Positions 20,052 through 24,273 of a stretch of 64,000 bases of DNA are shown piece by piece (position 1 is the first letter of the stretch; each line of letters opens with the position of its first letter). The translations under genes were made by a program, and so were the position numbers. The DNA comes from Gemmatimonadota bacterium. GTDB taxonomy: Bacteria > Gemmatimonadota > Gemmatimonadetes > Gemmatimonadales > Gemmatimonadaceae. The notes below the pieces were generated by a model that had not been told where the DNA came from, ran no database searches, and worked only from the letters and a program-made list of their open reading frames with translations. The stretch is taken from assembly GCA_021324775.1 (NCBI GenBank), contig JAJPIM010000006.1:124001-188000 (forward strand), read 5' to 3'.

Positions 20052-21197
20052 TTATCGCTTGTCGTAGACCAGCACCATGTGCACCGGCTCCCAATCTCCA
20101 CGCTGTAGCTCCTTCAGATTGGTCTCGCGTATGAGCTGCTTGCCCCGCGCCGAGAGATAATCGCGGCCCGTCTGCTCGAGGATGGCCTTCCCCTCCACCG
20201 ACAATGTGGTCGTGAAGACAGACGTATCTCCCTTGATCGCCACCTTGACGTCGAGCACGGCGCCTTGCTGCATCGGCGTCGTCACTTCGCCGTCGGTCGC
20301 CGGCCATTTGAACGATGTCCGCTGCACGCCGCCATGCGTGCCGAAATCGCCGGTCTGGTCCATCTGATATACCGCGCCGCTGCGCTTGATCTTCGACGTG
20401 TCGTTTCTCGGCACTGGCGCCCCGCCGAAATCGCTCTCCGCCAGATTGAGCGTCCAGATCCCCGAGAAATCCGGACCTTTCGGTTTCTGCGCTGCGCTCT
20501 GCGCCGCCATCGTGCCGGCCGCGGCGAACGTCAGCACGCAGCACACGAGCAGCGCGAGGCCAGCGGCGAAAGATGCAGGCGTCGTCCGCGACGGCGACTG
20601 CTCCAGCCGCTCGACGGCGGAGCGCAGCTCGTCCATGATCGGCGCACGGAAGCCGGTCTCATACAAACGGTCGTACACGCGCCGGTACCAGTGCGCGGTC
20701 GGCTCCGCACCAGGGCTGAAGCGCGCCCACACGGAATCGGCGAACGACGTCCGCTTGAGGTCCGCCAGGATCGCACTCGCGTTGTGTAGCGTGTGCGCCG
20801 CGCATAACCAGCGGGCGGAGTCGCTGGCCTTGTCGAGCCGCTCGATCAGATCGTCCTTGCGCTCATCCGACGCCATTTCCACCCCGGCATCGTTGATGGT
20901 GCGCACCGTCACCGCCAGCACCGTCGCGAGGACATCCTGGCCGAACTTCGCGCCCACCCGCTCTTCGAGATCCTCATGCGTCTGCCCGTCGCGCACGCTG
21001 TCGGCGACAACGTCCCGCAGGATCCCCGCGAGCACGGTGTTCTCGTCGCGCTCGTAGCGCGTGAGAATGATCGCGACGTTCGCCGGGTGGGTCAGGTACG
21101 GAAGGGCCGTGCCCTTGCGTACCTGCTTGTCGTGGTGCTTGGCCGCAAAGGCGAATGCGTGATTGATCCGGTCGGAATAGCCTACGACACCAGCCAT
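20052..21197 (-). CDS. Degenerate SpoT-like HD domain fused to a membrane-anchored periplasmic domain
   Basis: 381 residues from ATG 21197; a longer frame adds 29 unrelated residues. Residues 1-200 align by eye with the hydrolase domain of RelA/SpoT: FAAKHHDKQVRKG (17-29), LTHP (35-38), then ILRDVVADS where SpoT has LLHDVIEDT, and AAHTLHN where SpoT has LADRTHN. So the HD His is Arg61, the ED Glu is Ala65 and a later Asp is His135; Asp62, Asp66 and Asn139 remain. A TM helix (about 209-229) follows, then a periplasmic domain beginning DFSGIWTLNLAESDFGG, related to standalone secreted hypothetical proteins of soil bacteria. ppGpp hydrolysis is unlikely; a sensing or scaffolding role is inferred. 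No synthetase domain is present. Confidence 0.82.
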   Translation of the reverse strand: MAGVVGYSDRINHAFAFAAKHHDKQVRKGTALPYLTHPANVAIILTRYERDENTVLAGILRDVVADSVRDGQTHEDLEERVGAKFGQDVLATVLAVTVRTINDAGVEMASDERKDDLIERLDKASDSARWLCAAHTLHNASAILADLKRTSFADSVWARFSPGAEPTAHWYRRVYDRLYETGFRAPIMDELRSAVERLEQSPSRTTPASFAAGLALLVCCVLTFAAAGTMAAQSAAQKPKGPDFSGIWTLNLAESDFGGAPVPRNDTSKIKRSGAVYQMDQTGDFGTHGGVQRTSFKWPATDGEVTTPMQQGAVLDVKVAIKGDTSVFTTTLSVEGKAILEQTGRDYLSARGKQLIRETNLKELQRGDWEPVHMVLVYDKR

Positions 21198-21222: not shown

Positions 21223-22083
21223 TCACCGGTCAGGGGTAGCGGACCGAATCGCGGCGTCACTGCGGACGTACAATTCGCTGGCAAGGCTCTCGTCCATCGC
21301 CAACCGGCTCGGCCGGACCTCTCGGCACTTGTCGTAATAGCGTCCGGAACTAGTGCTCAGCTCGGGCGCAGTCGCGCAATACAGCGACGTCCGGGCACCC
21401 TCATCGTTCGAGATCATAAACTGCTTCATCACCCACTGGACCAGCCGCGGCATCTCACGCCAGATCTCGGACGCCACGACGCCGGGATGCAGCGAGTAGG
21501 TCGTGATCCGCGTGTCGGCGAGCCGCCGCGCCAGCTCCTTGGCGTGGAGCACATTCATCAGCTTGGAGGTACCGTATGTGGCGGCGAAGCCGTGGATCTC
21601 GGGTGGTCTCGCCAAGGCGCCCCAGTCGAGCCGCTTCACCCTGAAGTGGGCTTGGCTCGCGACGTTGACGATCCGGCCTTGCGTAGCCTCTCGGAGCGAC
21701 GGCAGCAGCAACTCCGTCAATAAGAACGGCCCCAGATGGTTCGTCCCGATGGTGAGATCGAAACCGTCCGAGGTCGTACCGTCGCGTCCCGCGCGGCCGG
21801 CGTTGTTGATCAGCACATCGAGTGGTCGCCCGAATGCCAGTACCATGCCGGCCGCTCGGCGGACGGAGGCAAGGCTCGCCAGGTCGATCGGCACGAACGG
21901 CAGCTCGGCGCGAGGGTAGAGCCGGCGCAGCACGTCGATGAACGACCCGGCCCTCTCCTCGGAGCGCGCGCCGATGATCACATTGGCAGCTCGCGCCGCG
22001 AGGGCCTGCGCCGTGCTACGGCCGATTCCACTGGTGGCCCCAGTGATGAAGAACGTTCGTCCCGCGAGGTCGTTGGTTGGCAT
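21223..22083 (-). CDS. Short-chain dehydrogenase/reductase (retinol-dehydrogenase-like)
   Basis: 286 residues from ATG 22083. Cofactor motif TGATSGIG at about residues 14-21, NNAG at about 93-96, and catalytic Ser (VASQAHF), Tyr and Lys in YGTSK (YxxxK). The order and length fit classical SDRs of the retinol dehydrogenase/WW-oxidoreductase-like group; NADP(H) is likely because of the Arg-rich segment GARSEER after the second strand. Substrate unknown. It starts 38 bases downstream of a small membrane gene on the same strand, with no clear ribosome-binding site. The shorter start is chosen because the upstream frame overlaps that gene. Confidence 0.9.
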   Translation of the reverse strand: MPTNDLAGRTFFITGATSGIGRSTAQALAARAANVIIGARSEERAGSFIDVLRRLYPRAELPFVPIDLASLASVRRAAGMVLAFGRPLDVLINNAGRAGRDGTTSDGFDLTIGTNHLGPFLLTELLLPSLREATQGRIVNVASQAHFRVKRLDWGALARPPEIHGFAATYGTSKLMNVLHAKELARRLADTRITTYSLHPGVVASEIWREMPRLVQWVMKQFMISNDEGARTSLYCATAPELSTSSGRYYDKCREVRPSRLAMDESLASELYVRSDAAIRSATPDR

Positions 22084-22120: not shown

Positions 22121-22555
22121 CTACACCAGCCCTTGGAGCTGGCCCAGGAATCGGGCATCCAGTACGAAAAATGCGGCAGCCTGCACAACGATACCGAGTC
22201 CCGCACCCACGAGGCCCAGACGCTGGCCCGGGTGCCAGCCGGTGATCGCCAGTGTCGTGCCCACGCCGATGCCTCCGAGGTCGAGCCCGATGGCCAGCCA
22301 GAGCAGATGGTCCATGCGCGTCGCCCCCGCGAGGTCGCGGAGCGCGAGGCCGTGCCACTGCCAGGCGGCCAGGGCGACGCCGAACGCGCCCCACGCGACG
22401 GTCTGCACGGCGAAGTGAAACAGGAGCGGCGACTGTTCCCGGCGGCGCACGAGCCAGAGCAGCAGCAGTGCACCCGAGAGCACGCTGATGTGCGCCCACA
22501 CGGCGAGGCGGATCAGGTAGTCGCGTTCGAATTGGAGCAGGGTATCGGCGAACAC
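22121..22555 (-). CDS. Four-TM membrane protein of unknown function
   Basis: 144 residues from GTG 22555. Four predicted TM helices (about 20-37, 45-64, 82-104, 112-134). An acidic-to-basic loop REQSP sits after helix 1; a polar HxxxWL pattern (MDHLLWLAIGLDLGGIGVG) is in helix 3. No named family recognised; similar unnamed proteins exist in Gemmatimonadota genomes as far as I recall. It lies between the SDR gene and the ATPase-like gene, all on the minus strand, spacing 33-37 bases. Confidence 0.75.
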   Translation of the reverse strand: MFADTLLQFERDYLIRLAVWAHISVLSGALLLLWLVRRREQSPLLFHFAVQTVAWGAFGVALAAWQWHGLALRDLAGATRMDHLLWLAIGLDLGGIGVGTTLAITGWHPGQRLGLVGAGLGIVVQAAAFFVLDARFLGQLQGLV

Positions 22556-22588: not shown

Positions 22589-23587
22589 CTACACGCGCGG
22601 CGGCGAATCCGCGTCCCACAACACGATGCCGCGTACGCGAAGTCCTGAATCCTGCAACACGGCGACCGAAGCCGCGAGCCGCGTGAGCGTGGTGAACGCC
22701 ACCCGCGCACACACGACGGCCTCGGACACCGGCAGGATGCTGTCGCTCCCGGTACGCGGCGCGCCGGGCGGCGCGGCCACCACGATCAGCTCGTACCGCC
22801 GCCCGAGCCGCAGCAACTCGGCGCGCAGTTCGCCCCGCGCGAGGTCGCCGGCCTCGCCGGCTGCATCGCTCAGGCGCCGCTCCGCCCTGCGGCGGCCAGC
22901 GGGTATCACGTCGAGCTTTCTGTCGCGCCCGGCGGAAGCCGGTACCGTCACCGCTGCCCAATCCGATCGCCCGGCCAGCACGTCGGCGACACCCGGCTCC
23001 CGCGGCACGGATACGATCCCCGCGACGAGCCCTGCGTCCGGATCCGCATCGATGAGCAGGGCGCTCCGCGAATCGTTGACGGCCGCGACGGCGAGGTTCG
23101 TCGCCACGGTCGCGACGATCGCGGCTTCGTCGCCGGTCACCGCCACGAATGGGAACGCGATGGGACTCGCCCCCTGCGGGTCGCTCACGTTGGCGTAGAT
23201 ACCGCGGTAGCTCTCCGCCGACGCGTCGATCAGAGGCGACAGCGCGCGGTCCGCGGCTCGCCGCGCGCGAACTGGATCGATCGGGCGCGAGGCGATCGTC
23301 GCGAGCGTTGGCACACCCGACACTCGCTCGGCCTCGGCGCCGTCCGCCACACGCGGGCGGCGCACCTCGGCTCCGAACGTCATCGCGAACCCGAGCGCCA
23401 GGCCGAGCACGAGCGCCGCGCCAGCGAGCGCGATCGGCGACGCGCTCTGGTCGTCGAGCGCCGCGTGGCGCGGGATGAGGAGCAGCAGGAGCGACGCCAC
23501 GGCGCAGACCGCGGCACTCACGCCGATAATACGCAACGGGCGGCGGAGCGCGTTGCGCGCCCTCGCCGCCAGCCACTGCGTGATCAT
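22589..23587 (-). CDS. Wzc/CpsD-like ATPase domain protein lacking the P-loop
   Basis: 332 residues. Two TM helices (about 19-37 and 53-72) enclose a short periplasmic stretch, as in bacterial tyrosine kinases and Wzz-type chain-length regulators. The cytoplasmic part follows the BY-kinase plan: GVPTLATIAS, ESYRGIYANV (usual EAFRTLRTNL), then strand FVAVTGDEAAIVATVATNLA where the Walker A motif GxGKST should be, and ALLIDADPD (Walker A'). The Gly-Lys-Ser/Thr is absent, and no C-terminal Tyr cluster exists. So it is probably not a kinase. Role in polysaccharide export is inferred from the family; no wza/wzx/wzy genes are nearby. Confidence 0.75.
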   Translation of the reverse strand: MITQWLAARARNALRRPLRIIGVSAAVCAVASLLLLLIPRHAALDDQSASPIALAGAALVLGLALGFAMTFGAEVRRPRVADGAEAERVSGVPTLATIASRPIDPVRARRAADRALSPLIDASAESYRGIYANVSDPQGASPIAFPFVAVTGDEAAIVATVATNLAVAAVNDSRSALLIDADPDAGLVAGIVSVPREPGVADVLAGRSDWAAVTVPASAGRDRKLDVIPAGRRRAERRLSDAAGEAGDLARGELRAELLRLGRRYELIVVAAPPGAPRTGSDSILPVSEAVVCARVAFTTLTRLAASVAVLQDSGLRVRGIVLWDADSPPRV

Positions 23588-23712: not shown

Positions 23713-24273
23713 CTACTGAACGGTGATCGTCCCCTTCATGCCGAGGGCGAGATGCGGCGTGCAGTTGAAGTCGTACTTGCCCGGCTTGACACCGGCAAAT
23801 GACACCGTGTAGGTGTCGTTGGGCGCCGTCAGGAGCGGGCTGCTCAAGTCACCGATCTTCGCGCTCGGACCCGCGCCGGTCTGCGCCGGCATGTTGGCGG
23901 CCAGTTGCTTCGCGTTGGCGGAATCCGCGCCCTCGGCGGGCAGCGTGTTGAACGCGACGTTGTGCGGACCACCGGTCACGTTCGTGAACTTGATGCCGTC
24001 GCCGACCTTGATCGTGAGGGTCGCGGGTTCGAAGCGATACCCTTTCTGATCACCGATCATCTGGACGTTCCAGGTCTTGCCCGTGATAGGCGCAGACTTC
24101 CCGGCCGTCGCGGCGGTCGTGGTCGCTGCGGCACCCCCAGCGGCCGGCGCCGGCGCGGCGGCCGCCGCGGCAGTCGTGTCGGGCGTGCTGGTACTCGCGT
24201 TCTTGTCGCCGCCCCCACCACACGCGCCGAGCGCGATGACGCCGGCCGTGAGCACTACTCCATGGAACCGCAT
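23713..24273 (-). CDS. Plastocyanin/azurin-like lipoprotein
   Basis: 186 residues from ATG 24273, with GGGGAGG nine bases upstream. Lipobox LGAC at about residues 15-18, then a low-complexity Ala/Thr/Gly linker (residues about 20-60), then a cupredoxin domain: GYRFEPATLTIKVGDGIKF, TGGPHNVAFN (first Cu-ligand His), and YDFNCTPHLALGMKGTITV, which supplies Cys, His and Met in the C-x2-H-x4-M spacing. A type 1 copper electron carrier tethered to a periplasm-facing membrane is expected. Neighbours give no clear redox partner. Confidence 0.92.
   Translation of the reverse strand: MRFHGVVLTAGVIALGACGGGGDKNASTSTPDTTAAAAAAPAPAAGGAAATTTAATAGKSAPITGKTWNVQMIGDQKGYRFEPATLTIKVGDGIKFTNVTGGPHNVAFNTLPAEGADSANAKQLAANMPAQTGAGPSAKIGDLSSPLLTAPNDTYTVSFAGVKPGKYDFNCTPHLALGMKGTITVQ

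Follow-up and report, generated by a model that had tools for sequence, protein, structure and literature searches.

Gemmatimonadetes have been listed with Rel plus Mesh1-L (Atkinson 2011; PMC3153485). The catalytic motifs of Mesh1-L/RelH SAHs are reported to be very strongly conserved (PMC5954133), and the HD-motif Asp mutation D74A abolished the activity of Tde-SAH, a homologue of the protein described here (PMC10434055). In E. coli RelA, a pseudo-hydrolase (HD) domain regulates the synthetase domain of the same chain (PMC8012599). We found no standalone pseudo-SAH in the open-licence papers searched, where the inactive cases among the entries seen were the RelA pseudo-HD and laboratory mutants.

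We examined a 64,000-nucleotide stretch of a Gemmatimonadaceae genome (hereafter the window), in which a single open frame runs from 21197 to 20052 on the minus strand, as do all window features given below, and encodes a protein of 381 aa (381 codons). The N-terminal half of this protein matched Pfam HD_4 (E 1.2e-11), and the closest solved structures to its SAH domain were 7qoe (E 2e-17) and 7qoc (E 1e-13; phmmer), whose annotations read HDc-domain protein and guanosine-polyphosphate pyrophosphohydrolase; 4yf1 was also among the structure matches. 7qoe is a Leptospira SAH (L. levettii SAH; PMC10434055). The predicted pseudo-hydrolase domain, of the Mesh1-L SAH type, spans residues 1-200 (20598..21197), and standalone orthologues end near this point. 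A first-pass annotation had called it a SpoT-type HD domain; the hydrolase fold stands, but the domain is an SAH/Mesh1-L orthologue, and a SpoT fragment was rejected because the orthologues occur as SAHs on their own and a full-length Rel is encoded separately.

The window SAH resembles the Mesh1-L/RelH SAHs (C. glutamicum RelH, L. levettii SAH 7QOE) in fold, in the size of its N-terminal part and in its HD_4 match. It differs from them in its broken catalytic motifs, in a signature, GYSDxINHAxAFxxK, that is absent from 7qoe and 7qoc, and in size: SAHs are standalone proteins of ~200 aa, as are the other distinct orthologues, whereas the window protein is a 381-aa fusion. It is a descendant of the Mesh1-L SAHs that, judged by its residues, fails their catalytic definition. 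By analogy, it would work most like the RelA pseudo-hydrolase domain, which likewise keeps the alarmone-hydrolase fold without catalytic residues; the dead HD of RelA, however, sits in a long RSH, and the SAH of this family is a separate small protein (in the window, fused to an unrelated secreted domain). We found no match to a ppGpp synthetase domain in the window protein, and for this reason place its SAH outside the RelA pseudo-hydrolase group.

Metal-ligand and catalytic-carboxylate positions were assigned from established RSH structures, by way of RelSeq H53, H77, D78, E81, D82 and D144. Compared with 87 canonical family orthologues, the window SAH carries Arg61 (21015..21017) in place of the HD-motif His, Ala65 (21003..21005) in place of the ED-motif Glu and His135 (20793..20795) in place of the metal-ligand Asp, which bears out the three altered positions reported in the first-pass annotation as well as its reading of an alarmone-hydrolase fold whose catalytic site is broken (HD_4, 7qoe/7qoc and the residue changes). 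Y117 and K136, like E65, are also changed. D62, D66 and the metal-ligand position His37 (21087..21089), lost in many relatives, are retained. The window SAH thus has neither an intact HD...ED nor the metal-ligand Asp, and with R61, A65 and H135 together, (p)ppGpp hydrolysis by it is very unlikely on these residues. The sister species palsa_1248 (genome G002, locus L031) has an SAH that is 82% identical, with the same three changes. All three occur together in these two species only, and G001, the next relative in the genus, is canonical. Conservation of the triple change, for which the first-pass annotation had proposed to look, therefore extends to the sister and not to G001, and a triple change conserved across the family was rejected.

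The retained residues leave room for a different reading, namely a rebuilt site (H37, D62, H135, H138) with a different phosphate ester as its substrate. H37, D62 and H135 could bind metal, His being able to do so; D135H required ~4 independent changes on the tree, and none of the 14 representatives of the degenerate clades has lost D66 or H138. Against such altered chemistry, the window SAH has Arg in place of the HD His and departs from the canonical residue at E65, Y117 and K136, and the substitutions in other lineages differ widely, with no convergence on one new site, which makes it decidedly improbable. D135H accompanied by K136T (AAHTLHN; window 20790-20795; L020, L131, L133) was observed in two genera, that of the window and a separate one (L020).

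Across the window's family (Gemmatimonadaceae), an SAH orthologue was found in 157 of 179 genomes. We define these as the GYSD-type SAH orthologue group by the GYSDxINHAxAFxxK signature, a within-family identity of ~50% or higher and a conserved gene cluster, all of which are found for the window SAH. At six catalytic positions, 87 of the 150 distinct sequences are canonical and 63 carry at least one change; a metal ligand is lost in 49 and three or more positions are changed in 19. On a tree built without the catalytic-position columns, parsimony gave at least 14 changes of state at the metal site, 6 of them forced by strongly supported branches. The window species and palsa_1248 form one loss event, adjoining their congener G001, which is canonical. 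No stop or frameshift was seen in the orthologue ORFs that were read.

The N-terminal signature, which in the window reads G6-Y-S-D-R-I-N-H-A-F-A-F-A-A-K20 (21138..21182), is kept even with the active site gone. A search of 395 genomes from the phylum for its DNA pattern gave matches in 141, all of them belonging to the window's family or to one sister family (f2); the reversed pattern, run as a control, gave none. All 21 of the f2 copies read have a broken site, with R27, D62 and D66 all lost and the signature retained. These copies were collected by the signature, so that its presence in them is not independent evidence, although several had been found earlier by plain homology; its survival alongside a wholly dismantled site is informative. 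In the f2 copies (L192-L212), HH, HL, HR or other pairs replace HD, and the RK motif is absent. Within loci of 2-3 kb around them we did not find the window-type gene cluster.

Beyond residue 200, the window frame continues through a fusion junction, SPSRTTP (20577..20597), into a hydrophobic segment (20514..20576; residues ~208-228, Kyte-Doolittle 2.29 over 19 residues) and then a DFSGxWxLN domain of the secreted type (residues 236-381; 20052..20492), whose homologues are secreted proteins. No credible Pfam match was obtained for the C-terminal part of the window protein, nor for the sister protein L031:5714-6397. In palsa_1248, the SAH ends after 211 codons at its own TGA (L031:5634-5636), and the secreted protein is encoded further downstream by an ORF of its own (from 5714), complete with start and signal peptide. 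A DNA alignment with L031 showed that the stretch L031:5634-5716, which holds the SAH stop, the spacer and the downstream start, is absent at the window junction; with these gone, the SAH frame reads on directly into the signal peptide's hydrophobic part. The DFSGxWxLN proteins of the same family (L031:5714-6397 and five further homologues, L222-L226, all separate proteins with ordinary signal peptides) share the domain and the relative position of the signal peptide with the window copy. Each begins at its own start codon; the window copy lies behind the SAH and shows no obvious start of its own. The first-pass annotation had read the segment as a TM helix leading to a periplasmic domain; the segment and the secreted-type domain are real, but by homology the segment is the signal-peptide h-region of a separate secreted protein, now internal. 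In palsa_1248, a tandem 12-base repeat (VASL units) lengthens the secreted-protein leader (L031:5795-5860).

The fusion occurs in 1 of 150 distinct orthologues; all others are 179-219 aa long and the window protein alone exceeds 219 aa. No second copy of the fused protein was found in its own genome. A fusion conserved across the family, for which the first-pass annotation had proposed to look, was absent in every relative examined and was rejected, the sister being unfused; this is the outcome that the annotation itself had named as refuting its idea. Its proposal of a membrane-anchored envelope sensor, in which a TM helix couples an inactive cytoplasmic alarmone-binding domain to a periplasmic sensor domain, is accordingly not upheld. 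The frame is open through the whole joint, with homology of both halves in that one frame, and an internal signal anchor could adopt an N-in/C-out topology. Nonetheless, with a single fused orthologue, a sister that carries the same dead domain and the secreted protein as two separate genes, a TM segment that is a signal-peptide remnant and a secreted domain that evolves faster (dN/dS 0.257), we regard a functional fusion of this kind as highly improbable.

The joint could also be an artefact of sequence or assembly, with DNA between two real genes wrongly missing: the window genome is a draft of 46 contigs, and the leader is repeat-rich in the sister, where assemblies may collapse. The joint is, however, in frame, retains the hydrophobic segment in full together with a likely cleavage region, and is internal to a 240 kb contig. 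An artefact is thus unlikely, and it could not touch R61, A65 and H135, which are common to an independent genome. The joint is most simply explained by a natural deletion. The fusion appears to be a one-lineage deletion product or an assembly artefact, not a conserved device linking the envelope to the stringent response, and is itself probably of little importance.

Of 20 wide loci that were inspected, most have the SAH in the same gene cluster, which comprises a plastocyanin-like protein, a Wzz/BY-kinase-like protein, a DUF6992 membrane protein or GAF protein, and the SAH, with ispG on the opposite strand. In the window, the conserved cluster starts with a plastocyanin-like lipoprotein (23713..24273), followed by a Wzz/BY-kinase-like protein of 332 aa without the Walker A lysine (22589..23587) and a DUF6992 membrane protein of 144 aa (22121..22555); Pfam matches for the first and last of these were obtained on the sister copies. 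A short-chain dehydrogenase gene (21223..22083) lies immediately upstream of the SAH. The Walker A lysine is absent from each Wzz/BY-kinase-like copy read (window 22589-23587, L032:2775-4469, L169:4803-6527; e.g. VTGDEAAIVATVATNLA), and on this motif the protein is likely a second pseudoenzyme beside the SAH. The window gene, at 332 aa vs 548-637 aa in most relatives, has lost most of the periplasmic part. Just upstream of the palsa_1248 SAH, a remnant of the short-chain dehydrogenase is left, its last ~48 codons (L031:4823-4965). Deletions around the SAH are common, as seen in the dehydrogenase of palsa_1248 and the BY-kinase-like gene of the window.

These deletions bear on whether the SAH is simply decaying. 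Since Rel hydrolyses ppGpp, the SAH might be dispensable, and a copy with a dead site, then fused by read-through, might be on its way out. A full-length Rel was found in 12 of the 14 genomes checked (in the window's own genome with HD/ED and the later Asp intact), no SAH match was found in 22 of the 179 family genomes, and further deletions lie nearby (the dehydrogenase remnant and the shortened BY-kinase-like gene). Set against neutral decay is the constraint that persists after loss: dN/dS (NG86) between the window and palsa_1248 SAHs is 0.107, and the medians are 0.121 for metal-lost pairs (15 pairs) and 0.104 for canonical pairs (52 pairs). Losses are also concentrated in the pocket. Positions H37, H61, D62, E65, V93, T97, Y117, D135, N139 and F160 fall to 7-43% in the degenerate representatives, whereas of the 80 positions that are near-invariant in canonical sequences, 36 show no change in any of the 14, among them G6, Y7, S8, D9, H13, K20, H21, R80, D116, R120, W130, D146, R149 and E190. 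Given this pattern, the orthologue ORFs free of frameshifts and stops, and the sister-family copies, all dead among those read yet retained, neutral decay is quite unlikely. The loss of the active site, a frequent event in this family, probably does not reflect neutral decay. An AlphaFold model from a four-sequence alignment was poor (mean pLDDT 42.9).

We consider it likely, on the residues and their constraint, that the SAH has repeatedly become a pseudoenzyme while keeping a non-catalytic role, and that catalysis was lost before one lineage acquired a fusion. The ancestor of the window species and palsa_1248 would have lost the HD His, the ED Glu and the metal-ligand Asp, and with them (p)ppGpp hydrolysis; both species keep the protein under purifying selection, most likely as a pseudoenzyme. 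The folded domain may use its conserved N-terminal helix, together with residues outside the pocket, to bind a ligand or partner, and ppGpp would instead be made and degraded by the full-length Rel encoded elsewhere in the genome. In the window genome, deletion of the SAH stop, the spacer and the next start would then have joined the ORF to the secreted protein's signal peptide and mature domain. If one chain is made, Sec targeting would export the secreted domain while the pseudo-hydrolase stayed cytoplasmic, either tethered or freed by signal peptidase; such a tether would be an accident of one lineage and not the design of the system, and we saw no sign that it serves as a sensor. The retention that reveals selection leaves the selected function unspecified. 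More tentatively, and with somewhat less than even confidence, we suggest that the GYSD-type SAH of the order is a dual protein, kept for a non-catalytic function (alarmone sensing, or binding of a partner such as Rel via the N-terminal helix) and repeatedly relieved of hydrolysis.

Were this dual-protein reading true, the order would hold a stringent-response pseudo-hydrolase that stands alone and has arisen many times. With more than 100 orthologues, the family sequences allow catalytic residues to be told apart from non-catalytic ones, and offer D9, H13, K20, H21, R80, D116, R120, D146, R149 and E190 as candidate residues for a non-catalytic role. It also cautions against labelling every Mesh1-L gene an active hydrolase. 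Repeated loss of the active site under strong constraint would make this family a natural experiment in pseudoenzyme evolution.
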